From positions 1 to 64,000 of the forward strand of contig CABVRX010000006.1 in the NCBI GenBank assembly GCA_902500825.1: a stretch of DNA of 64,000 nucleotides. Direction: 5' to 3'. The notes under the pieces are model-generated. The model saw only the letters and a list, made by a program, of their open reading frames with translations. It was not told the DNA's origin and searched no databases. Below are positions 573 through 21,728 of the stretch, in pieces (within the stretch, counting starts at the first letter, position 1; every line of letters starts with the position of its first letter). This DNA is from an uncultured Nitrospira sp. (GTDB lineage Bacteria > Nitrospirota > Nitrospiria > Nitrospirales > Nitrospiraceae). The translations under genes were made by a program, and so were the position numbers.

Positions 573-1445
573 CTACCGTCCCAATGCTTGTTTGACCGCC
601 GCCCCGATCTCAGCCGGATTCTTGACGACTTTGACCCCGGCGGCTTCCAGCGTCTTCATCTTTTCAGCGGCGGTGCCCTTGCCACCGGAGATAATCGCGC
701 CGGCATGACCCATGCGGCGGCCTGGAGGCGCCGTGATACCGGCGATGAAGCTGATCACCGGTTTCTTCACGTTTTTCTTGATGAACTCGGCGGCCTTCTC
801 CTCGGCATCGCCTCCGATTTCGCCGATCATGACGACCGCCTGCGTCTCAGGATCTTTCTCGAACAACGGCAGAACGTCTACAAACCCTGTGCCGTTCACC
901 GGATCGCCGCCGATCCCGACACAGGTCGTTTCTCCCAATCCCAAGGTCGAGAGCTGATGCACGGCTTCATAGGTGAGAGTGCCGCTGCGAGAGACGACTC
1001 CCACAATGCCCTTCTTATGAATGAAGCCCGGCATGATACCGATCTTGGCTTCATCCACCGTGATCACGCCAGGACAGTTCGGGCCGATCAGCCGCACGTC
1101 ACGACCACGAAGCGCGCGTTTCACCCGGACCATGTCATTGACGGGAATTCCTTCCGTGATGCAGATGACTAACTTCACACCGGCATCGGATGCTTCGAGG
1201 ATCGCATCGGCGCAGAACGGCGGCGGTACGAAGATGAGCGACGTATCGCAGTCGGTCTTCTTCACCGCATCGGCCACCGTATTGAAGACCGGAATACCCT
1301 CGACTTCCTGCCCGGCCTTCCCCGGCGTCACACCGGCGACTATCTTCGTCCCATAGGCCTTGCACTGCGTCGCATGGAACGAGCCTTCCTTGCCCGTAAT
1401 CCCCTGCACCACCACTCGTGTATTCTTATTAACGAGAATGCTCAC
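573..1445 (-). CDS. sucD: succinyl-CoA synthetase (ADP-forming) alpha subunit
   Basis: Alpha subunit of succinate-CoA ligase, which interconverts succinate, CoA and ATP with succinyl-CoA; in an rTCA organism it makes succinyl-CoA for the ferredoxin-dependent carboxylation to 2-oxoglutarate. Its 290 residues match the family length. An N-terminal CoA-binding Rossmann fold ([11 protein letters not shown] near residue 11) is followed by the ligase domain, with the phosphorylated histidine in GHAGA at His247. The start is a GTG (1443-1445) preceded by an AAGAGG-type ribosome site. It is the last gene of the rTCA operon, 286 bp after sucC. Its N-terminus closely resembles that of AclA in the same operon, as expected from the common ancestry of the two ligases. 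Confidence 0.97.
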
Positions 1446-1731: not shown

Positions 1732-2910
1732 TCACGCCGCTTTGCCGGTCAGCTTGACGATTTTCTGCGCGGCCTCCCAGAGATCATTAGCCACTTCGAG
1801 CTTCAGACCCGATTCGGCCAAGAGCTTGCGGCCCTCATCGGCATTGGTCCCTTGCAAACGCACGACCAACGGCACCGTGATCTTGACTTCTTTGGCCGCT
1901 TCGATGACACCATGCGCAATCCGCTCACAGCGGACGATGCCGCCGAAGATGTTGATGAAAATCCCTTTAACGTTCGGATCGCTCAGGAGAATGCGAAAGC
2001 CCGCTGCCACCGTCTCCTTCGTCGCACCACCGCCGACGTCCAAGAAATTCGCCGGTTCACTACCGGCCAGTTTGATGACATCCATCGTGGCCATGGCGAG
2101 GCCCGCGCCGTTCACCATGCAGCCGATGTTCCCGTCAAGTTTCACATAATTCAGATTGTTGGCTGCCGCCTCGATTTCCAGCGGTTCTTCTTCATTCAAA
2201 TCCCTCATCTTTTGCACGTCTTCGTGCTTGAAGAGGCCGTTGTCGTCGAAGGAAACCTTCCCATCCAACGCCACCAGCGTCTTTTCCTTCGTGATGATCA
2301 ACGGATTGATTTCGACCAGCGCAGCGTGCTTCTCCATGAAGAGTCGATACAGATTCTCCAGCATCTTCACGAAGGGATTGATGACCGCCGGCTCGATGTT
2401 CTGGAGGCCCAGCGCAAAAGCGACGTTGCGGCCGTTGTGGCTCTGAAATCCGACGGCAGGGTCAATCGCTTCCTTGATGATCTTTTCCGGCGTGTGGGCG
2501 GCTACTTCCTCGATTTCCATCCCGCCTTCGGTGCTGGCAATGAAGGTCGGCCAACCGGTATCGCGATCCACAAGAATCGAGAGATACAATTCCTTGGCGA
2601 TGTTCGCCCCTTCTTCCATCAAAAGGCGGTGAACCTGGCGTCCCTTCGGACCGGTCTGGTGCGTGACCAGTGTTTTGCCGATCAGCTCTTTGGCAAAACC
2701 GGCGACTGCGCCTTTATCCTTCGTAATCTTGACGCCGCCTGCCTTGCCCCGTCCGCCGGCATGAATCTGCGCCTTGACGACGAAGACCGGCGTGTTCAGC
2801 TCGTTGGCCCAAGCCGTCGCAGCTTCCGGAGAAGTGATCTCTTTCCCGCGAGGCACCGGCACACCGAACTGAGCGAACAGCGACTTGGCCTGAAATTCGT
2901 GCACATTCAT
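1732..2910 (-). CDS. sucC: succinyl-CoA synthetase (ADP-forming) beta subunit
   Basis: Nucleotide- and succinate-binding subunit that pairs with SucD. Its 392 residues match the family. The start MNVHEFQAK is typical, with an ATP-grasp fold behind it (KAQIHAGGRGKAGG near residue 46, and NPLI near residue 200). The C-terminal ligase domain carries GCMVNGAGLAMATMD and NIFGGIVRCE. An ATG with a GAGGTAGAGA leader supports the start. It lies 139 bp after frdA in transcription order, so fumarate reduction and succinate activation are co-encoded. Confidence 0.97.
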   Translation of the reverse strand: MNVHEFQAKSLFAQFGVPVPRGKEITSPEAATAWANELNTPVFVVKAQIHAGGRGKAGGVKITKDKGAVAGFAKELIGKTLVTHQTGPKGRQVHRLLMEEGANIAKELYLSILVDRDTGWPTFIASTEGGMEIEEVAAHTPEKIIKEAIDPAVGFQSHNGRNVAFALGLQNIEPAVINPFVKMLENLYRLFMEKHAALVEINPLIITKEKTLVALDGKVSFDDNGLFKHEDVQKMRDLNEEEPLEIEAAANNLNYVKLDGNIGCMVNGAGLAMATMDVIKLAGSEPANFLDVGGGATKETVAAGFRILLSDPNVKGIFINIFGGIVRCERIAHGVIEAAKEVKITVPLVVRLQGTNADEGRKLLAESGLKLEVANDLWEAAQKIVKLTGKAA

Positions 2911-3049: not shown

Positions 3050-4633
3050 TCACCCCACTTTTCTCGTGTACGCCGGCAGGATCATCGGTGAAATGACACC
3101 GCTGACATTGCCATGCTTCCTGGCTTCGGCTCGGAACCCCTGCAAATGTTTCAGCGTGAGCTTGCCCTGCTTCATCGCTGTCGCACGGCCGGCCGCGGTC
3201 AACCCGGACCGCTTGCCGAACACCATGAGATCGAGCAGTGAATTGCCCATCAGGCGGTTGCGCCCATGCAGTCCACCGGAGGCTTCGCCTGCCACGAAGA
3301 GGTTGTTCACGTTCGTTTCCGAGTTGGTATCGATTTTTACTCCGCCGTTCTGATAGTGCAGCGTCGGATAGATCAAGACCGGGTCCTTGCTGATATCGAT
3401 TCCGAACCGTTCGAACTGGAGCATCATCGCTGGAAAATGCTTTTCCACCGTGCCGGGCCCATGCTCCGCATCCAGCAGCGGCGTATCCAGCCAGACCCCG
3501 ACGCGGCCGGACATCGTTCTGATTCCACGGCCTTCTTCGCACTCACGGATGATCGAGGACGACACGACGTCGCGTGTGTCGAGTTCGTTCACGAATCGCT
3601 CGCCCTTCGCATTCACCAGCTGCCCGCCCTCGGAACGGATGCCCTCCGTCACCAAGGCGCCGATCAATTGTTCTGGATACACCGCGCCTGATGGGTGGTA
3701 CTGAAACGTATCGATATGGGCCAGTTTGGCGCCCATGCGGTAGGCCAGACAGAGTCCATCGCCCGTCGCCCCATAGTGATTGCTCGTCGGGAACCCCTGA
3801 ATATGCAGCCTGCCGATGCCGCCGGTTGCGAGAATGACGGCCTTGGCCGCCACCACCACCTGCCGCTGATTATCGAGATCTTTGAAGATCGCGCCGGTAC
3901 AGGCTCCGCTTTCATCACTCAATAACTCGACGGCCGCTGCGAACTCCAACAACTGAATCTTTTGATTGATGACCTCGTCCTTGAGCACGCGCATGATTTC
4001 GAGGCCGGTATAATCGGAGCACGTCAGCAGGCGAGGTTTGGAACTGCCGCCGCCCTTCTTCACATGGAGATTGCCGTCGGCCTGCCGATCAAACAACACA
4101 CCTAATTCGAGCAGCCATTTGGCGATCGACGGCCCGTCTTCCACCATGACCTTGAGCAAGGCATGGTCGTTCTGCATGTGACCGCCCTTGAGCGTGTCGA
4201 TGAAGTGCGTGACCGGCGAATCTTCCGGCGCGACAGAAATCTGCATCCCCCCCTGCGCCATGACGCTGTTTGAATCCCCCAGCCGCAATTTCGTGGCCAG
4301 GATCGTCTTGGCGCCGGCTCCGTGCGCATGCAACGCGGCCGCACACCCGGCGCCGCCTCCGCCGATGACCAGAACATCGGCCGTGTACTGAGGCGTCAGG
4401 TCGAGGTCGTCTTGAATCGAGCTGTCGCCTTCAAGCAGCATCGCCAACTCGACGACTGTCTTGTCGCTCTCGTTAGGACCGAATGCGATCGGCCGATAGG
4501 CGCTGGCGCGGAAGTCGGGGTGATACTTGTGAATCAGCTGGTCGCGGTCTGCGGAAGAAAACTTGGGGATGGTCTGTTTGCGGCGGGCATCCCGAGTTTT
4601 GTGCACAATTTGTTGGAGTGCGTGAATATCCAT
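3050..4633 (-). CDS. frdA: fumarate reductase/succinate dehydrogenase flavoprotein subunit, soluble-type
   Basis: Flavoprotein expected to reduce fumarate to succinate in the rTCA cycle. An N-terminal extension of about 85 residues precedes the FAD dinucleotide fold (DVLVIGGGGAGCAAA, residues 86-100). Substrate-site motifs are present: HPSG, TEGIRSEGG, DTRDVVSS, LHYQNGG and the terminal FAD motif LHGRNRLMGNSLLDL. The position that carries the covalent-FAD histidine in SdhA/FrdA (SHT..A) reads SNSVMAQGG here, with Asn122, so FAD should be bound non-covalently. The protein stops soon after the FAD domain (527 residues), so the usual C-terminal helical part is largely missing. It sits 22 bp after frdB; no membrane-anchor gene is adjacent. 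It could also be described as a thiol/other-donor fumarate reductase flavoprotein. Confidence 0.92.
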   Translation of the reverse strand: MDIHALQQIVHKTRDARRKQTIPKFSSADRDQLIHKYHPDFRASAYRPIAFGPNESDKTVVELAMLLEGDSSIQDDLDLTPQYTADVLVIGGGGAGCAAALHAHGAGAKTILATKLRLGDSNSVMAQGGMQISVAPEDSPVTHFIDTLKGGHMQNDHALLKVMVEDGPSIAKWLLELGVLFDRQADGNLHVKKGGGSSKPRLLTCSDYTGLEIMRVLKDEVINQKIQLLEFAAAVELLSDESGACTGAIFKDLDNQRQVVVAAKAVILATGGIGRLHIQGFPTSNHYGATGDGLCLAYRMGAKLAHIDTFQYHPSGAVYPEQLIGALVTEGIRSEGGQLVNAKGERFVNELDTRDVVSSSIIRECEEGRGIRTMSGRVGVWLDTPLLDAEHGPGTVEKHFPAMMLQFERFGIDISKDPVLIYPTLHYQNGGVKIDTNSETNVNNLFVAGEASGGLHGRNRLMGNSLLDLMVFGKRSGLTAAGRATAMKQGKLTLKHLQGFRAEARKHGNVSGVISPMILPAYTRKVG

Positions 4634-4655
4634 CTCGGAAGCCTCGACGATCGAA

Positions 4656-5369
4656 CTACTTTACCGCAGCACAATGCTCGGCCAGTTCCTTGTCGTTCAT
4701 CTTTAAAACCTTGTTCCACTCATCGTTGAACCGACCGTCTTGAATCTCCTTAATGCGCGTATCGAGACCCACCGGCTGTTCGGCAAAATGCGCGCCCTGC
4801 GCGCGACTGACGTACAGCGCCACAAGATTGGGCGCGATGTCCGCGATGCAGACCGGCGTGCACATGCCGCACATGACACAATCCATGAACATCTCGGAGA
4901 CGCTTTTGAAGTCGCCGAAGACGGCTTTCCAGACACCTTCGCGCACGTCGATTTTTTGCGGACAGGCTTCGGTGCACGCGTTGCAATTCCGGCAGAGCGG
5001 CGCTTCCGGATAGAGATTGAACAGATCCTGCTTGGGATCTTGGAGTGTTTGAATGTCGTAAGTGGCCTTGCGCGCCGGAAACGGCGGCATCATCGTGAAG
5101 GACATGCCGTCCTGCACCGCGGTCTGACAGGCCAAACAGGTGCGGACTTTGGGGTCGTCTTTCGTCCGGTAGTACGTCGCGCAGGCGCCGCAGAATCCGC
5201 CCAAGCACCCGACACCCCGCACCACGTCGATCCCTGCGTACCACATCGCCTTGATGACCGTGATCCCTTCCGGCACGTCCGCCTTCTTGCCGGCAATCTC
5301 GATCGTCACCATCCGGGGCTTCAACACCTCGGGTTGGTCGATGACATTCTGGGTATCGTCTGTTGCCAT
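4656..5369 (-). CDS. frdB: fumarate reductase iron-sulfur subunit
   Basis: Electron-transfer partner of FrdA, 237 residues. An N-terminal plant-type ferredoxin domain has CLGGFCGAC plus a fourth Cys in VRTCLACQ, giving a [2Fe-2S] site. The C-terminal alpha-helical ferredoxin domain has CRNCNACTEACP and then CVMCGMCTPVC. The second motif has four cysteines, whereas canonical SdhB/FrdB has three there and binds [3Fe-4S]; this implies two [4Fe-4S] clusters, as in HdrC/TfrB-like proteins. The quinone-contacting cluster may therefore be replaced. It is followed 22 bp later by frdA and preceded by a 96-bp gap after icd that contains an inverted repeat. The electron donor is not evident from the locus. 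Confidence 0.92.
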   Translation of the reverse strand: MATDDTQNVIDQPEVLKPRMVTIEIAGKKADVPEGITVIKAMWYAGIDVVRGVGCLGGFCGACATYYRTKDDPKVRTCLACQTAVQDGMSFTMMPPFPARKATYDIQTLQDPKQDLFNLYPEAPLCRNCNACTEACPQKIDVREGVWKAVFGDFKSVSEMFMDCVMCGMCTPVCIADIAPNLVALYVSRAQGAHFAEQPVGLDTRIKEIQDGRFNDEWNKVLKMNDKELAEHCAAVK

Positions 5370-5465: not shown

Positions 5466-9972
<4,507 letters not shown>

Positions 9973-10108
9973 TGCGCTCTCCTTACGAACAGGCTTGGGA
10001 ATCTGGAGCCAGGAGCCAAGGAGTTGCGCTCCCCGGCCACGCCCCGTCACCAACCTTGGGTTAGGGCGGCATGCCCCGCCACTCGCTGAGCGGCGGAACC
10101 TCCCGCAA

Positions 10109-11929
10109 TTATTTCAACGGCGGAACTTCGCGTCGTTTGGGCGCCGCGTAGTTCACCAAATAATCGAACAGCCGGATCAAACGGCTATCCTGGCGCTTCT
10201 GATCAACCCAGTGGCCGATCAACCCGATCGTGCGAGACAGGATGAAGAAGCCGTTCAAACTGTCGACCGGGAAACCCAGATCGACGAGCACGGCCGCCAT
10301 CGTGCCGTCCACGTTCAGAATCAGATTGTCTTTCTTCACAGCCGTCACCTGCTCGACTTGTAACGCGAAGTCGAGGCAGGGCGTCTTGATATTCAAACTT
10401 TTCACATAGCCCACAAGTTCTTTCACGCGCTTGTCCGGATTGCGCAAGCTCTTCACGCGATGCCCGATACCGGGCACGGGTCCCACGTTCTTTTTCATGT
10501 AGGCCAGGAATTCGTCTACATTCATCTTGTTGTCGACGGCGTACTTGAACCAGCGCCCGGCATCCGTCACGGCGCCGCCGAAGCGCGGACCGATCATGAT
10601 CAAGCCGGCCGCCACCGCTTGCGACAAGCCGATACCGGCGCAAGCCGCGAGAATCGTCGCATAGGCGCCGCTCACGCAGGGGCCATGGTCGGCAGACAGC
10701 ATCATGATACGCTTAATGATTTCCGCTTCCTGCTTCGAGATCAACCGCTTGTCCCAGAGCAGCCCGATGACATGAGGGATTTCATAACCCTTATTGATAA
10801 GTTCGGAGGCCGGATACCCGTCGTAGCAAGGTTCGTCTCCTCGGTCGTCGCTGATGGTGGTGCGGATGAGCGGCGCGACCATGACTTCGTCGGCCTTCAT
10901 CGCCTCTTCGATCGACTTCGGCAGCCGCGGCAGGACAGCCGGTTCAACGGGCTCCTTGACCTGTCCGGACTTGAGCAATTCCTGGTAGGCATCCTTAATC
11001 GCGGGACCGAGCGCACCGAATGTCGGCGGGACGATCGCGCCGGATTTCTTGAGCGCGTCGGACTTCGAACGGGCCGAACCTTCACCCTTCATCCCTTCCT
11101 TGGCGCCGGCATGGCCGAATTTCATCCCCTTCGGCAAACTCTCCTGACAGAATCCCGAAACGACGCCGATGAGCTTCACCCGGCGCTTCTTTGCGCCGTA
11201 CCACTCGGCGGCCCGCTCTTCGAGGTCGCCGCCCATCTCACCGACAATGACGACCGCCTTCGTCTGCTGATCGTTCTCGAACATTTCGAGATAGCTCACG
11301 TAGTCGGTGCCGGGGTAGGCATCGCCGCCGATGCCGATCGCCGTCGTGATGCCGTCGGCGAACTGCGAACAAATCCAAATGATTTCGTTGGAAAGACCGC
11401 CTGACTTGGTGATGACGCCGAATGAACCTTCCCGATAGAGCTTGGAGAGTACCAGGTTGTCGAAAGCCCCGCCGATCACGCCCAACCGGCACGCGCCGGC
11501 AGAGATAATGCCGATCGAGGACGGGCCATTGAACACCTTACCGAGCTTGCGCGCATGGGCGCCGAGCAGTTTCGCATCTTTCTCCGGCACACCCTCGGTG
11601 ATCATCGAGACCACCTTGATATGTGAATCATCCAGCGCTTCCATCCCACCCTTCATGGCACGGTCCGCGCCGATATAGACAAGGCTCGTGTTGATGGTCG
11701 GGTGGTTCTTCGTCGCTTCCGCTATTGTCTTATAGATGGGAATCGCGATCAACCCACTGCCGTAGGGAATCTCGTTGGTTTTGCCGGCGTCAGGCGGATA
11801 GACGAACGCCTCGACGTTGAGCGGGCGCTTGACCAGGTAGCAGAACTCCGCCATGCGGCGGGCTGCGTTGACACCTGCCGCCCCCCCCTGAATCACCACG
11901 CGGGTGTCTTTATTTGCCAGAATACTCAT
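10109..11929 (-). CDS. aclA: ATP-citrate lyase alpha subunit (ligase/citryl-CoA lyase part)
   Basis: Larger subunit of the key rTCA enzyme, which splits citrate with ATP and CoA to acetyl-CoA and oxaloacetate. From the ATG at 11929 (GGGAG just upstream) it has 606 residues; the open frame runs 26 codons further up but without a ribosome site. Residues 1-300 resemble SucD, with the phospho-histidine in FGHAGAKEG (His273). Residues 340-606 are a citrate-synthase-like lyase domain, with SADHGPCVSGA (His415) and PGIGHRVKS (His490). It follows aclB by about 97 bp. A run of eight G (11881-11888 on the plus strand as C) lies in codons 14-17. Confidence 0.97.
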   Translation of the reverse strand: MSILANKDTRVVIQGGAAGVNAARRMAEFCYLVKRPLNVEAFVYPPDAGKTNEIPYGSGLIAIPIYKTIAEATKNHPTINTSLVYIGADRAMKGGMEALDDSHIKVVSMITEGVPEKDAKLLGAHARKLGKVFNGPSSIGIISAGACRLGVIGGAFDNLVLSKLYREGSFGVITKSGGLSNEIIWICSQFADGITTAIGIGGDAYPGTDYVSYLEMFENDQQTKAVVIVGEMGGDLEERAAEWYGAKKRRVKLIGVVSGFCQESLPKGMKFGHAGAKEGMKGEGSARSKSDALKKSGAIVPPTFGALGPAIKDAYQELLKSGQVKEPVEPAVLPRLPKSIEEAMKADEVMVAPLIRTTISDDRGDEPCYDGYPASELINKGYEIPHVIGLLWDKRLISKQEAEIIKRIMMLSADHGPCVSGAYATILAACAGIGLSQAVAAGLIMIGPRFGGAVTDAGRWFKYAVDNKMNVDEFLAYMKKNVGPVPGIGHRVKSLRNPDKRVKELVGYVKSLNIKTPCLDFALQVEQVTAVKKDNLILNVDGTMAAVLVDLGFPVDSLNGFFILSRTIGLIGHWVDQKRQDSRLIRLFDYLVNYAAPKRREVPPLK

Positions 11930-11955
11930 CGCAATCTCCCTCTTTTTCTCAGTGG

Positions 11956-12021
11956 TGAGTGCTGCATCCCGAGTGAAAGAGCAGCTCCGCCACTCAGCAC
12001 CCAGCACTCAAAACTCAGCAC
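11956..12021. repeat. inverted/direct repeat in aclB-aclA gap
   Basis: TGAGTGCTG (11956-11964) pairs with CAGCACTCA (12002-12010), and ACTCAGCAC occurs twice in direct orientation (11992-12000 and 12013-12021). The central word ACTCAAAACTC matches the repeat in the icd-frdB gap. It probably folds in the operon mRNA between aclB and aclA; function unknown. Confidence 0.55.
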
Positions 12022-12026
12022 TGCCT

Positions 12027-13223
12027 TTATTTTTGGAGCGCTTTGTCGACGATGTCCGTCAGCGGGGTGTTGCGGTCGAAGACATGGATGTCGAAGCCCT
12101 CGTCCTTCAGCAGGCGCATCGCATCAAGCCCCTCTTTTTCACGAGGTCCACCGCGGCGCACCCAAATTTTTACACCCTTCAGCTTGCCGCCCCCCTTTGC
12201 CTTGCGGAATCCATTGATGATGCCGCCGAAGGTCTTCTTCACGTCGGTAAAATTGGCAATCGCCCCGCCGACGATGATATTTTTGATGCCGGGCAACGAG
12301 CAGACCTTTTCCGTCAGCACTTCCACGGCCCAATCTGGGGGATCACCCGAATACTCGGCATAGTTCGCCAATTTGCCGCCTCGCGCCACGACGGCATCGG
12401 AATAATAGACGCTCGCGCCGCCGCCGGCCGGCAGCATCGCCGTATCGCCGCCAGGAATTTCGATGAATTTGACGGACCCCTTGATCTTGCTGTCAACCGC
12501 CATGACTTCCACTTCATCTTTACTGTAGGCACGCCCGAACTCCGCGGCAAACTGGAAATTCCAATCTGGGTGGCGGAATTTGGCATCACCGTCCAGCAAC
12601 GTCACGGCATCGAGCGCGACCAACTCCCCGTCGCTCTCGCGCGTCACGACGGGATTCACTTCGAGATACTGCGCATCTTCGCTGTCGAAACAGGTAAACA
12701 TCTTTCCGGCAAAGTCCGTCATCCTTTTGGCGACCGATCCGGTAAATCCTGCATCCTTAGCGAGTTTTTCAAGCTGTTCCGGGGAAGGAGTTTGGCCGAC
12801 ATCAAGACATAATCGCTTCACGCGCTCCCAATTCGATTCCACTTCGATACCGCCGCAATTGGCAACGAGGATTTCGGCCCCTTCACGAGTGGATTTCACC
12901 GCACAATAATATTCTTCTTTATGGGGAACCATTTCCGAGATGATGACCTGAGAGACGGTGATGCTGCCGACTTGGCGTCCGATCATTTCTTTGGTGGCCG
13001 CAACGGCACCGTTCAGATCGAGACCGACCTTTACCAAACCGAGCTTAAACCGGGAACCCAGCGCTTCATGCGCCTTGGCGACCAATTTGGTCTGCTTCAT
13101 CCAATCGTTGACTTGACCAAGCTTGGAGAGTTCATCCGCGGAGGTGACCACCACATAATGTGGAACGTGGATTCCCCACTTCTTCATCAGTCCCATTCCG
13201 GGACCTTCCAAAACCTTTGCCAT
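12027..13223 (-). CDS. aclB: ATP-citrate lyase beta subunit (ATP-grasp part)
   Basis: Smaller subunit of ATP-citrate lyase, homologous to SucC; it binds ATP and citrate and works with AclA. Its 398 residues match the two-subunit enzyme of green sulfur bacteria and Nitrospira. Visible blocks include KLVAKAHEALGSRFKLGLVK (ATP-grasp, near residue 46), a YLEVNPVV segment, the glycine-rich MLPAGGGASVYYSD and IVGGAIANFTDVKKTF. The ATG at 13223 has AAGGAGAA upstream. It is the first gene of the rTCA operon, 43 bp after the -10 box of a good sigma70-like promoter. Confidence 0.97.
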   Translation of the reverse strand: MAKVLEGPGMGLMKKWGIHVPHYVVVTSADELSKLGQVNDWMKQTKLVAKAHEALGSRFKLGLVKVGLDLNGAVAATKEMIGRQVGSITVSQVIISEMVPHKEEYYCAVKSTREGAEILVANCGGIEVESNWERVKRLCLDVGQTPSPEQLEKLAKDAGFTGSVAKRMTDFAGKMFTCFDSEDAQYLEVNPVVTRESDGELVALDAVTLLDGDAKFRHPDWNFQFAAEFGRAYSKDEVEVMAVDSKIKGSVKFIEIPGGDTAMLPAGGGASVYYSDAVVARGGKLANYAEYSGDPPDWAVEVLTEKVCSLPGIKNIIVGGAIANFTDVKKTFGGIINGFRKAKGGGKLKGVKIWVRRGGPREKEGLDAMRLLKDEGFDIHVFDRNTPLTDIVDKALQK

Positions 13224-17580: not shown

Positions 17581-18915
17581 TTAAATGCTGCGCATGAAGT
17601 GGGTGACTTCGTCCTGACTGACGGCGCCTCCCATGACTTGCGACATCGCGACGTTCGTGGACTTCTTGCCGGTCAGACCAGATTCGACTTCGTCCAAGAT
17701 CAACTCCACCGGCATCGACTGACCACCATACACACGTGGGCCGCCGATGATCTTAGCTTTGGAGTAACCATAAATCGCCGTTGCCACTTCTTTGGCCAGC
17801 CACCCGACATAATTGAACTCCGGCACGACGATCAGCTTTGCATTCTTGCACAGCTCGCGCAGTTCCTTCGTTGGGAATGGACGGAGCGACCGCACTTTGA
17901 TCAACCCAACGTTGAGGCCTTTGTCCTTGCACAAACGAACCGCTTCGCGCGATTGGGCAGCTGCGCTGCCGGAGGCGATGATGATAGCCTCCGCACCTTC
18001 AACGTTTTCCGCAGTCAGCAAGCCACCCATGTACTTATTGATGTACTTGCGGGAACGTTCGACCGCCGCCCAGACTTCTTGCTGCCACACAGCGTGAATA
18101 TTGTAAGCCATGAAGTTCGACTTCTGGACCGGGGCATCGCGGGACAAACGTGCGGGAGGATTCTCCGCATCGAGGACCGGGACCGCGCCCCGCCAAGCTT
18201 CTCGCGGAGGTAACTTCATACCACGATCCTGCATGCGCACATACCCGCGGGCATGAGTGACGAAGAACCCATCGCAGCAAACTCCGACCGGCAAGGTCAC
18301 ATCGTTCTTTTCACTGATCGTGAATCCTGCCATTGTGAAATCGAACATGTCCTGCTGGTTCTCTGCATGAAAGACAATCATCCCACAATTCAGCAGGTAG
18401 GACACTTCGATATTGTCCGGTTGAATCGCAAGCGGCGCGTTGACCACCCGGCAGGTAAACATGGCAACGACCGGGAGACGGTGACCAGGCCAAGAGGCAA
18501 TACCCTCTAGACCGCGTAGCGTACCAGGTCCGGCGGTCGCGGTATAGCAACGGACACCTGCGCGGGACCCACCGGCGATTGCCGCCATGACACCGACTTC
18601 TTCTTCACCACGATAATACTCTTTCACGTAGCCTTCACCGTAGAGCACGCCGACCAGCTGCATGGTTTCGCTCTGTGGGGTGATCGGATAGGCGATGGCC
18701 AAATCCACGTTCGATCGACGGATGGCTTCCTTTGCCGCTTCGCTTCCCGTAATGAACTCTTTTGTCCGAGGCGCCTCATGAAACAGGTATTCAGGGGTCA
18801 CCACTCGCTGACTCTTCGCTTCACCATGAGGATCCTTTTTCCCATCGGACTTCGGCACAGCGACGCTGGTAATCGGATCACCCTGCGGATTCGTTTTCAC
18901 TTCGGTCTCGCTCAT
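17581..18915 (-). CDS. porA: 2-oxoacid:ferredoxin oxidoreductase alpha subunit
   Basis: Alpha subunit of a five-gene pyruvate or 2-oxoglutarate:ferredoxin oxidoreductase that carboxylates acetyl-CoA or succinyl-CoA with reduced ferredoxin in the rTCA cycle. Its 444 residues carry an N-terminal extension of about 50 residues, then the pyrimidine-binding domain: ITGSEAAKEAIRRS, YPITPQSE, YYRGEEEVGVMAA with the catalytic Glu, and ATAGPGTLRG. The transketolase C-terminal-like domain II follows (EAIIIASGSAAAQSREA, IKVRSLRPFPTKEL). It is the last gene of the operon, 41 bp after porE. Whether the substrate is pyruvate or 2-oxoglutarate cannot be decided from sequence alone; the symbol is provisional. 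Confidence 0.9.
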   Translation of the reverse strand: MSETEVKTNPQGDPITSVAVPKSDGKKDPHGEAKSQRVVTPEYLFHEAPRTKEFITGSEAAKEAIRRSNVDLAIAYPITPQSETMQLVGVLYGEGYVKEYYRGEEEVGVMAAIAGGSRAGVRCYTATAGPGTLRGLEGIASWPGHRLPVVAMFTCRVVNAPLAIQPDNIEVSYLLNCGMIVFHAENQQDMFDFTMAGFTISEKNDVTLPVGVCCDGFFVTHARGYVRMQDRGMKLPPREAWRGAVPVLDAENPPARLSRDAPVQKSNFMAYNIHAVWQQEVWAAVERSRKYINKYMGGLLTAENVEGAEAIIIASGSAAAQSREAVRLCKDKGLNVGLIKVRSLRPFPTKELRELCKNAKLIVVPEFNYVGWLAKEVATAIYGYSKAKIIGGPRVYGGQSMPVELILDEVESGLTGKKSTNVAMSQVMGGAVSQDEVTHFMRSI

Positions 18916-18956
18916 AGTTGCACCTCTTTGGCTAGTTCGAGCGTTGCCGCCCGGCC

Positions 18957-19721
18957 TTATCCTTCCCGTTTCATGTGCTCGGCAGAATGACCGAACATTG
19001 CCGCACTGCCCGTCCCGCCAGGAGTCGGGGCGAACGCCATCGGATTGGTGTGGGTCTTACCGCCGTGCACCTTCGACTGCGTGCCGGTAAAGCGTACATT
19101 TTCACCGTTCTCCGGCAGTTTGATCCCCATCTCTTCGCGAACACGCTTGAAAATCTGAGCCACTCGCTTGATCTTGAGTGTATCGGAGTCTCGGATCGTC
19201 AACATCGCATCCTCATGGCCCTGTTCCGCACAAACGGCCATCGTACAGCAATTCGTGCCCGCCCGGATCATCTTGAGAGTCAGATTCGCATAATGACAAT
19301 GCACTCCGATGAAAATGCAGGCCTCAATCTTATTGCCCCAGATCGTGAGATTAGGATGATTGGGGTTAATAACTTCTTCGGGATCGATCTTTGGATACTT
19401 CGGTCGATAGTCCGGCATCGGAATGATCATGACTTCCGGAATCTGCGCGGCAATTTCCAGAGTCGCCTTTGCTTTTTCCACTGCATGATCGTTCCAAGCC
19501 CAGAGCAACAGCGGTCCAGGGAAGAGAGTCGCGTTGGGGCTCGTCAGCATTTTACGAGCCATCTCTTCAATCACCACTTCCTCGTTCGGCTCGAGCAATC
19601 CGTAAAATAATCCCTCCCCTGGATCCGGCAGCGCCACACCCAATTGCGCGGCTGACGGAGGATGGAAACCCGCAGGTCCGGGTACGATGATACGCTCTCT
19701 AGTATCCTGTGTTGTTGCCAC
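18957..19721 (-). CDS. porE: fifth (epsilon) subunit of 2-oxoacid:ferredoxin oxidoreductase, CODH beta-like
   Basis: A 254-residue accessory subunit characteristic of the five-subunit enzymes known from Hydrogenobacter and Nitrospira. A central segment (TIWGNKIEACIFIGVHCHYANLTLKMI cut here at its core: IFIGVHCHYAN) resembles the acetyl-CoA decarbonylase/CO dehydrogenase epsilon-type fold often named CO dehydrogenase beta-subunit-like. Cysteines lie in HCHYAN, TNCCTMAVC. A Gly/Ala-rich tail ends GHSAEHMKREG. It lies between porD and porA. Its exact function is unknown; a structural or CoA/nucleotide-binding role is an inference. Confidence 0.82.
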   Translation of the reverse strand: MATTQDTRERIIVPGPAGFHPPSAAQLGVALPDPGEGLFYGLLEPNEEVVIEEMARKMLTSPNATLFPGPLLLWAWNDHAVEKAKATLEIAAQIPEVMIIPMPDYRPKYPKIDPEEVINPNHPNLTIWGNKIEACIFIGVHCHYANLTLKMIRAGTNCCTMAVCAEQGHEDAMLTIRDSDTLKIKRVAQIFKRVREEMGIKLPENGENVRFTGTQSKVHGGKTHTNPMAFAPTPGGTGSAAMFGHSAEHMKREG

Positions 19722-19743
19722 GCCCTTCCCCTTTCCTCAGGTC

Positions 19744-20067
19744 TTATCCGACGACCGGACTGGCCAAAACGGCCGTCGTGCTCTTTTCGCCGTACGTAAT
19801 GTTGTCCGTCAACGCCGCCTTCGGCAACTGATCGATCATGATCATCTTAATGGCATTGTTCTTAGCCATGTTGTCACAGACCCATACACACTGCGCACAC
19901 CCTTTACAACGGTCCACCGCGACATAAGCGGAACCATACTTGAACCCCTGTTCCTTGCCCATTTCATCGCTGTACTGAATAGTATTGGCCTCCGGGCAAT
20001 ATTGCGTACAGAGCTTACAGCTTTTCGCGGCACAGATTTCAACACTGATATCGGCTACAAGGTACAT
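19744..20067 (-). CDS. porD: 2-oxoacid:ferredoxin oxidoreductase delta (ferredoxin) subunit
   Basis: A 107-residue two-cluster ferredoxin subunit carrying electrons between the TPP site and external ferredoxin. Cluster motifs are CAAKSCKLCTQYCP and CKGCAQCVWVCD; the second lacks the proline that usually follows the last Cys. The start is the ATG at 20067 with AAAGGAG upstream; the frame can be read 34 codons further into porG but no site supports that. Genes are tightly spaced (20 bp to porG). Confidence 0.9.
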   Translation of the reverse strand: MYLVADISVEICAAKSCKLCTQYCPEANTIQYSDEMGKEQGFKYGSAYVAVDRCKGCAQCVWVCDNMAKNNAIKMIMIDQLPKAALTDNITYGEKSTTAVLASPVVG

Positions 20068-20087
20068 GAAGACTCCTTTGTGACCGG

Positions 20088-20804
20088 CTACGCGGTGGCC
20101 GCTGCCACTGGCTCTTCCGCCCGTTTGACATCGGCCGCAGCCCAACCATGATCGACGGCATAGTTCCATCCGGCCCGCATGACGGCCACGTTCTTCTCGA
20201 TCAGTTCCTGTTTCTTCTTGAACTTCCGCTCAACGACACTGTCGAGGGCGGCGGTGCCGCCTGACACCACGAAGCCTTTTCCGAGAAACCGATCCTTCAC
20301 GGCCTGATCCAATCCAGCCATGCTCGTCAGCCCTGTAATCGCGCCGATACAGCCCATCAGCGCCATGTTGGTGGCGAGGTCCATGCCTGCAACCTCTAAC
20401 GAGATCTTCGTCGCAGGAAAGTAATAGAGCTTCGCGCGAAGCTTCTTCAGCTCAGCCGCTTGATCTCTGTGAAGATTCATCGGCCCATCGTTGTTGATCA
20501 GGGCAACCCCATCTTCTTTCAAGCCGAAATAGAACGGCATCGTATAGGACTTGCCGTGGGTGATGACCTGTGGATGGAAGATGATGATGATGTGCGGAAA
20601 CGTGATTTCACCGATTTCGTAGATAGGCTCATCCGAAACACGGACATAGCTTTCGACCGGCGCCATTCGCTTTTCCGACCCATAAAACGGGACAATGGTG
20701 CTTTCACCGCCGGCATTGATGACAGCCGTACTGAGAATATGCGAGCCAGTGACGACACCCTGGCCCCCGACACCTGCCATCCGAATATTGAATCTCTTTG
20801 CCAT
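20088..20804 (-). CDS. porG: 2-oxoacid:ferredoxin oxidoreductase gamma subunit
   Basis: A 238-residue gamma subunit with the family start FNIRMAGVGGQGVVTGSHIL, then FYGSEKRMAPVESYVRVSD and the LINNDGPM segment. It completes the alpha-beta-gamma-delta core around TPP and CoA. ATG with a GAGGTC-type leader, 21 bp after porB. An Ala/Glu-rich tail of 15 residues follows the domain. Confidence 0.92.
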   Translation of the reverse strand: MAKRFNIRMAGVGGQGVVTGSHILSTAVINAGGESTIVPFYGSEKRMAPVESYVRVSDEPIYEIGEITFPHIIIIFHPQVITHGKSYTMPFYFGLKEDGVALINNDGPMNLHRDQAAELKKLRAKLYYFPATKISLEVAGMDLATNMALMGCIGAITGLTSMAGLDQAVKDRFLGKGFVVSGGTAALDSVVERKFKKKQELIEKNVAVMRAGWNYAVDHGWAAADVKRAEEPVAAATA

Positions 20805-20825
20805 GATTGACCTCCTCGTGAACGT

Positions 20826-21728
20826 CTAGGCTTTGCCCGGAATCGCGGCGGCAGGAGCAGCCGGCTTGGCGAGGAATTCTTTGTAGCCATAGCGCTCAGT
20901 GAGGTATTGCTTCGCTTCTTCACTGACGTATTCGGTGAACTGATACCGATCATTCTCAACTGTCTTTGCATCTTCCATGACCTTGTCGGTCGGAATGGCA
21001 TACTCGATATTGCAGGAGGTATACGCCTGAATATAGGTCGAGCCGACTTCGCGAGCGATCAACACAGCCTTCTTAATGACACTTTCTACACGTCGTGGGT
21101 TATTCGGCACTACAGTCGCCACATAAGCACAACCCGCGACCTTGGCCATCTGCAGCATATCCATCTTCTCGAACTTCTTACCGAGCGGGGCCATTTTCAG
21201 CACGGCACCCCGATTGGTCATGCCGCTTTCCTGTCCGCCGGTATTCCCGTAGACTTCGTTGTCCAACATGATTGTTGTGAACCGCTCTTTGCGGAACCAA
21301 GAGTGGAGAACCTGCTGGAAGCCGATGTCCGCTGTACCGCCGTCGCCGGCCATCACAACCACATCCTTCGGCTTGTCGCCGAAGCGAAGACGGAGACCTC
21401 TGGATAAACCACTCGCCACTCCATTCTGGTCACCATAGTTGCCATAGACAAATGGAATTGCCGCCTGAGAGATGGCCAGACGACCACACCCAGCCGTCCC
21501 GACAGTAATGGTGTCTTCAGGATTGGGAAATGCAATCATGGCTAGCCGAATGAAGAGCGTCATAGCACAGCCGGCACACATGGGATGCTCTTCCAACACT
21601 TCCTTGAAGCTTCCCATTTGTGAAACAGTGACCTTTTTCCCAAATGGTCCATGCTCCACCATGTCCCGATATTCCTTTGGCATAAACTTCTCAAATCCAT
21701 TGGAAAACTTTACATAATCAAGACTCAT
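20826..21728 (-). CDS. porB: 2-oxoacid:ferredoxin oxidoreductase beta subunit (TPP-binding)
   Basis: First gene of the por operon, 300 residues, binding thiamine diphosphate and a proximal [4Fe-4S] cluster. Cluster cysteines are in HPMCAGCAMT and TAGCGRLA; the TPP motif runs GDGGTADIGFQQ to LDNEVYGNTGGQ. A third cysteine region lies in YTSCNIEYAI. The ATG at 21728 has GGGAGG upstream. The 450-bp region before it must hold its promoter. It works with PorGDEA and supplies 2-oxoacids to the rTCA cycle and biosynthesis. Confidence 0.92.
   Translation of the reverse strand: MSLDYVKFSNGFEKFMPKEYRDMVEHGPFGKKVTVSQMGSFKEVLEEHPMCAGCAMTLFIRLAMIAFPNPEDTITVGTAGCGRLAISQAAIPFVYGNYGDQNGVASGLSRGLRLRFGDKPKDVVVMAGDGGTADIGFQQVLHSWFRKERFTTIMLDNEVYGNTGGQESGMTNRGAVLKMAPLGKKFEKMDMLQMAKVAGCAYVATVVPNNPRRVESVIKKAVLIAREVGSTYIQAYTSCNIEYAIPTDKVMEDAKTVENDRYQFTEYVSEEAKQYLTERYGYKEFLAKPAAPAAAIPGKA

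Follow-up and report, generated by a model that had tools for sequence, protein, structure and literature searches.

Which donor supplies electrons to the fumarate step of Nitrospira, the most widespread nitrite oxidisers, comammox included, is not settled in the literature that we found. The question is raised here by frdB and frdA, a gene pair in a 64,000-nucleotide stretch of DNA from an uncultured Nitrospira sp. (contig CABVRX010000006.1, positions 1 to 64,000; the window). The original prediction, made from the sequence of the window, described the pair as an atypical and apparently soluble fumarate reductase that may use a donor other than quinol.

The frdAB pair lies in a reductive TCA gene block

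The two genes are separated by 22 bp on the minus strand, and the genes around them follow the order acl-acn-idh-frdB-frdA-sucC-sucD, which is the Nitrospira-type reductive TCA gene block (Table 1). In a contig scan that returned Nitrospira relatives alone, the closest named records for FrdB were from Nitrospira, with N. moscoviensis at 91% identity. The monomeric isocitrate dehydrogenase gene between those of aconitase and FrdB was seen in the window and in L069 (f1); it is absent from three f2 loci (L057, L065 and L068), in which aconitase is followed directly by frdB. Further along, positions 17581-21728 look by eye like a multi-subunit 2-oxoacid:ferredoxin oxidoreductase (POR/OGOR) cluster.

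Table 1 Features of the frdAB locus and its neighbours, in window coordinates.
Feature	Position	Strand	Basis and remarks
sucD, succinate-CoA ligase alpha	573..1445	minus	474 bits, above cut-off
sucC, succinate-CoA ligase beta	1732..2910	minus	569 bits, above cut-off
frdA, flavoprotein subunit of anchorless fumarate reductase, 527 aa	3050..4633	minus	Pfam, NCBIfam, alignment
Codon of FrdA Asn122, replacing the covalent-FAD His	4268..4270	minus	alignment
Conserved FrdA N-terminal extension, residues 1-82	4388..4633	minus	invariant P39, D40, G52, N54, E68, S71; helical model
frdB, iron-sulfur subunit, 237 aa	4656..5369	minus	ORF, Pfam, alignment
FrdB second CxxCxxCxxxC motif, C164-C174	4848..4880	minus	invariant; Cys at the [3Fe-4S]-determining residue of complex II
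FrdB first CxxCxxCxxxCP motif, C126-C136	4962..4994	minus	invariant
FrdB putative [2Fe-2S] site, C55, C60, C63, C81	5127..5207	minus	invariant, 26 sequences
Monomeric NADP-dependent isocitrate dehydrogenase	5466..7694	minus	1308 bits
Aconitase	7726..10053	minus	profile match; listed ORF start probably too early, protein ~750 aa
ATP-citrate lyase/citryl-CoA synthetase-like large subunit	10109..12007	minus	sucD-like and citryl-CoA lyase-like halves
ATP-citrate lyase/citryl-CoA synthetase-like small subunit	12027..13223	minus	sucC-like

Flavin site, extension and clusters of FrdAB

In the alignment, Asn122 of FrdA (GDSNSVMAQGG) pairs with the flavin-linking His of M. smegmatis SdhA (fgkaHtvmaegg), as the original prediction had read it, and Asn occupies this position in 30/30 family members, from Nitrospirota, Burkholderiaceae, Pseudoroseomonas and Ilyobacter. 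The canonical SdhA of the same genome is of the His type (RRAHSIAAQGG). The FAD of FrdA is probably non-covalently bound, to judge from Asn122. The catalytic His/Glu/Arg/His/Arg set is complete and invariant across the family alignment (H313, E330, R354, H426 and R460); from knowledge of E. coli FrdA, we take these residues to be the fumarate reductase active site.

The Pfam domain FAD_binding_2 begins at residue 86 of FrdA. The preceding segment, first proposed as an 85-residue extension, is real and conserved, with a length nearer to ~82 residues; it is predicted to be helical with pLDDT mostly 83-93, and its invariant residues (Table 1) indicate that the start was not mis-called. The other end is short, as had been suggested: E. 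coli SdhA (1nek, 588 aa) aligns no further than its residue 419, at FrdA residue 480 of 527, and most of the helical C-terminal part of SdhA has no counterpart in FrdA. VIA-align matched FrdA with flavocytochrome c3 and FrdA structures at Z 27-29 over residues 65-518, a span that covers little of the extension; the FrdA model has low confidence at residues 122-154 and 182-209.

The cluster motifs of FrdB read CRNCNACTEACP and CVMCGMCTPVC. All twelve candidate ligands (C55, C60, C63 and C81; C126, C129, C132 and C136; C164, C167, C170 and C174) are invariant in 26/26 sequences, including the four cysteines of the second motif to which the original prediction had drawn attention. This set implies one predicted [2Fe-2S] and two predicted [4Fe-4S] clusters, with the fourth Cys of the last motif placing, as we infer from the ligands, a [4Fe-4S] cluster where complex II has [3Fe-4S]. 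The second motif of the SdhB encoded in the same genome, CGNQNECEAVCP, is of the [3Fe-4S] type. A PDB sequence search with FrdB had generic ferredoxin domains alone among the matches listed. Foldseek with the FrdB model gave partial [2Fe-2S]/ferredoxin-domain matches; SdhB/FrdB of complex II was not among the matches listed, which carries no weight against a relationship.

Membrane anchor and solubility

Inspection of ORFs and profiles from sucD to acl found no anchor gene, in agreement with the earlier reading of the neighbourhood, and no segment of FrdA or FrdB has a mean hydropathy above 1.6. A PF01127 search of the genome (99.78% complete) gave no match because its SdhC is a b558-type protein (TIGR02046). 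This SdhC is the sole one detected genome-wide; it is the anchor of another complete enzyme, encoded by an SdhCAB operon of its own. Full FAD_binding_2 proteins of this type number three in the genome: NadB, FrdA and the canonical SdhA.

We hold with considerable confidence that FrdAB is a reductive TCA fumarate reductase that lacks an anchor and is probably soluble; a donor other than quinol is likely. The proposal of a soluble, non-quinol enzyme is upheld to this extent: the missing anchor stands, solubility is probable, and comparison with relatives points to NADH as donor.

FrdAB and its linked genes in relatives

A survey of 245 genomes of Nitrospirota detected FrdB, at E<=1e-40, across Nitrospiraceae (f1, f2), in other families of the class and in several further families, one f1 genome (G210) giving no match at this threshold; weaker matches in the 168-genome tally were mostly generic ferredoxin domains. 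Judged by sequence, FrdB homologues occur throughout Nitrospirota, and the FrdAB pattern is far beyond chance. The order acl/ccs-acn-(ccl or idh)-frdB(-frdB2)-frdA-sucC-sucD recurs across Nitrospirota loci, taking the form acn-ccl-orf1-frdB-frdA-sucC-sucD in the Leptospirillum-like family f19. In several families a tandem pair of diverged frdB genes precedes frdA (L051, L052, L053, L061, L062 and L070), with the Cys ligands kept in both copies among those aligned.

Elsewhere, frdAB adjoins genes for NADH-oxidising modules. The order frdB-frdA-nuoF is contiguous in 6/6 proteobacterial records, some of the relatives being plasmid-borne; five are from Burkholderiaceae and one from Acetobacteraceae, so few independent lineages stand behind this linkage. 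Ilyobacter has hdrB-hdrC-hdrA-flxD-flxC-flxB-flxA-frdB-frdA with aspartate ammonia-lyase close by, and f11 has frdB-frdB-frdA-sucC-sucD-flxC-flxB-flxA. In f16, one FrdAB copy accompanies hdrA-flxDCBA and another sucC-sucD; a sucC-sucD-nuoF contig of this family starts in sucC and the frdB-frdA contig breaks inside frdA, the join being deduced, and a sister genome has frdB-frdA-sucC-sucD. These relatives suggest, by analogy, that FrdAB may receive its electrons from NADH by way of a module of the NuoF or Flx type. Two genomes carry two FrdAB copies each (L058/L059 in G006, L219/L220 in G016), the copy with hdrA-flxDCBA having a GCRGG-type FrdB and the copy with sucCD a GCLGG-type FrdB.

A stand-alone NuoF in Nitrospiraceae

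The genome of the window has two nuoF genes, one belonging to complex I and one orphan outside the window (C29:44638-45939). The orphan is followed by genes for a [2Fe-2S] ferredoxin and an IscA-like protein, with malate dehydrogenase two genes before it, and has orthologues in 77/77 sampled Nitrospiraceae genomes (f1, f2). It outscores the complex I NuoF of its own genome against all six FrdA-linked NuoFs (for example, 313 vs 265 bits). In the alignment, this orphan and the FrdA-linked NuoFs retain the NADH/FMN motifs and the four N3 cysteines, and share the signature SCGQCPPC, as opposed to SCGKCxPC.

A tree built from 63 NuoFs gathers the complex I-like sequences in one clade (support 100/100), outside which fall the cytochrome b-flanked and f19 NuoFs together with the orphan, FrdA-linked and sucCD-linked ones. 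The Nitrospiraceae orphans and the FrdA-linked NuoFs are not sister groups, and long branches come together; the tree therefore backs only a shared position on the side away from complex I. In f12, f18 and f36, the cytochrome b-flanked nuoF genes adjoin, or are enclosed by, genes for cytochrome b-like proteins of ~700 aa (L178, L179, L180, L181, L185 and L210), which suggests an NADH-linked bc-type complex; their NuoFs form a clade of their own. In f19 (L189, L207, L212 and L213), the gene after the stand-alone nuoF encodes a small protein with the Cys pattern of thioredoxin-like [2Fe-2S] ferredoxins, a partner that differs from the Nitrospiraceae ferredoxin.

In N. moscoviensis, a single nuoF gene, NITMOv2_4064, is highly expressed; it is reported together with an Fe-S insertion protein and a ferredoxin, and its product was suggested to serve the 2M complex I, which lacks nuoE/F (Mundinger et al. 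2019, PMC6606698). The same study found high expression of the flavoprotein gene NITMOv2_0695, labelled 'SdhA or NadB', and expression of complex II genes below the median. We located the sole third full-length FAD_binding_2 gene of N. moscoviensis at 658 kb and its NuoF orthologue at 3,840 kb; matched by gene density alone, these positions agree with NITMOv2_0695 and NITMOv2_4064.

A 2M-type NuoM orthologue is present in all sampled Nitrospiraceae and several related families. None was detected at E<=1e-80 in f4, f9, f11, f16 and f19 (f9 and some f19 genomes being drafts), and f4, f9, f16 and f19 have FrdAB and a stand-alone NuoF. This co-occurrence in the genomes favours, short of proof, a link between NuoF and FrdAB.

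The electron donor of FrdAB

From these comparisons we infer a route in which FrdAB would be the soluble, heterodimeric fumarate reductase of the Nitrospira reductive TCA cycle. NADH would be taken up by the separately encoded NuoF-type protein, with FMN and one [4Fe-4S] cluster, and a probable relay is the [2Fe-2S] ferredoxin encoded beside nuoF. Electrons would then pass through the one [2Fe-2S] and two [4Fe-4S] clusters of FrdB, with which NuoF may be in physical contact, to FrdA, which would reduce fumarate with the usual catalytic residues; the path would thus run from NADH to NuoF, optionally ferredoxin, FrdB, FrdA and fumarate. We lean slightly towards this reading as a whole, a soluble FrdAB with NADH as its most likely donor through NuoF and probably ferredoxin; NADH through NuoF taken by itself is our best donor hypothesis, to which we give an even chance. 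Several points weigh against it. NADH is costly for a nitrite oxidiser, and using it to reduce fumarate wastes energy. In Nitrospiraceae, nuoF is located outside the frd operon, the tree does not pair the FrdA-linked NuoFs with the orphans as sisters and has long branches that meet, and the cytochrome b-flanked NuoFs on the same side of the tree come from families without FrdAB. In addition, the same NuoF has been proposed for the 2M complex I, found in all sampled Nitrospiraceae (PMC6606698).

The last point underlies the alternative that survives best, in which FrdAB is still the reductive TCA enzyme but is fed by a different soluble carrier, for example a ferredoxin of the cell, while the orphan NuoF serves the 2M complex I. 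Fumarate reduction by low-potential ferredoxin would, however, also waste energy, frdA and nuoF are adjacent in Proteobacteria, and a stand-alone NuoF accompanies FrdAB in the four families that gave no 2M NuoM match at E<=1e-80. On the other side, the ferredoxin gene adjoins nuoF, ferredoxin-dependent POR/OGOR-type genes occur in the window, and all sampled Nitrospiraceae have both the orphan NuoF and the 2M complex I, which lacks nuoE/F (PMC6606698). On balance we judge this alternative rather unlikely.

That FrdAB works as a quinol:fumarate reductase, attached to the membrane through an anchor not yet recognised or through peripheral contact, appears improbable. To our knowledge, every characterised enzyme of that type has an anchor, and in Leptospirillum a small membrane protein gene just upstream of frdB, orf1, was proposed to encode one (PMC2607301; loci L054, L055 and L067). 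We rejected orf1 as a general anchor: it is missing from the window and other loci, and its match elsewhere in the genome is weak and partial, over 54 residues. Moreover, the quinone-proximal [3Fe-4S] cluster appears to be replaced in FrdB, and a complete quinone-type SdhCAB is present separately.

The original prediction also likened the pair to HdrC/TfrB-type enzymes. TfrA is the best NCBIfam model for FrdA (369 bits, cut-off 718), FrdB has an HdrC-like double cluster motif, and the sister subtype is accompanied by Hdr genes. Taken to mean a thiol or heterodisulfide donor, the likeness nevertheless finds no support, because FrdB lacks a CCG domain (no PF02754 match in the Pfam search) and no CCG or Hdr gene is encoded nearby. 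The two CCG loci of the genome, a GlcD/GlcF-like fusion and a GlpC-like iron-sulfur protein adjoining rubrerythrin (L018), are unlinked to frd and look unrelated, and were rejected as a source of a CCG/HdrB partner. In the sister subtype (Ilyobacter and the second f16 copy), the Hdr link always comes with the NADH-oxidising FlxA. We consider it very improbable that FrdAB is a thiol:fumarate reductase of the methanogen TfrAB kind or is linked to Hdr. That FrdA is an aspartate oxidase or another flavoprotein is scarcely credible: NadB is its second-best NCBIfam model and also binds FAD non-covalently, but a separate NadB is encoded apart from frdA (L001), frdA is paired with frdB among reductive TCA genes, and relatives lie beside fumarase (L063) or aspartate ammonia-lyase (L153).

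Relation to known enzymes and implications

FrdAB shares with complex II (SdhABC/FrdABC) the FAD_binding_2 fold, the catalytic residues and the plan of a [2Fe-2S] cluster followed by further Fe-S clusters, but it lacks an anchor, carries Asn at the flavin-His position and a predicted [4Fe-4S] for [3Fe-4S], and has an N-terminal extension and a truncated C-terminus. Methanogen TfrAB provides the best profile for FrdA and has two four-Cys motifs in its iron-sulfur subunit, like FrdB; TfrB, however, has the CCG/HdrB domain that FrdB lacks, and the score of FrdA is far below the TfrA cut-off.

Elements of our preferred reading, FrdAB supplied from NADH through NuoF, are already published, as far as the accounts cited describe them: the Leptospirillum FrdAB, the NADH-dependent enzyme of Hydrogenobacter and the Flx-Hdr-FrdAB combination. 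The reductive TCA operon of Leptospirillum ferriphilum, acn-ccl-orf1-frdAB-sucCD, had no known anchor, and its FrdAB was filed as type E with orf1 as the proposed anchor (Levican et al. 2008, PMC2607301). It resembles that of Nitrospira as an anchorless reductive TCA operon, and the FrdA and FrdB of f19, which has this layout, fall in one family with those of Nitrospira; the Leptospirillum operon differs in having orf1, absent from Nitrospira loci, and a NuoF donor was not proposed there. Hydrogenobacter thermophilus has a soluble NADH-dependent fumarate reductase of five subunits, FrdA-E (Miura et al. 2008, cited in PMC12743299), with homologues in Aquifex, where FrdD is the product of a gene named nox (PMC10052474). 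By these accounts, that enzyme and, putatively, Nitrospira FrdAB are both soluble, serve the reductive TCA cycle, use NADH and have scattered subunit genes; the five subunits, and an Aquifex FrdD that is nox and not NuoF, set it apart by description. In Pseudoclostridium thermosuccinogenes, frdAB lies beside an Flx-Hdr complex with an NADH-oxidising module (PMC7282089). Comparable operons carry FrdAB of the Nitrospira family in Ilyobacter and f16, but P. thermosuccinogenes is fermentative, with bifurcation to ferredoxin proposed, and the window has no Flx/Hdr genes near frdAB.

The proposed combination of FrdAB and NuoF was not found in the open-access literature searched. We tentatively suggest, at somewhat less than even confidence, that FrdAB, the stand-alone NuoF and the [2Fe-2S] ferredoxin may form an NADH-dependent fumarate reductase subtype that carries out the fumarate step when Nitrospira and its Leptospirillum-like relatives fix CO2, distinct by description from the five-subunit enzyme of Aquificota and with swappable modules (NuoF, FlxABC, Flx-Hdr) elsewhere. 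If this subtype is real, the NuoF credited to the 2M complex I would be reassigned. Dependence of FrdAB on NADH would alter what CO2 fixation costs Nitrospira in energy, and a conserved gene pair would gain a testable function.
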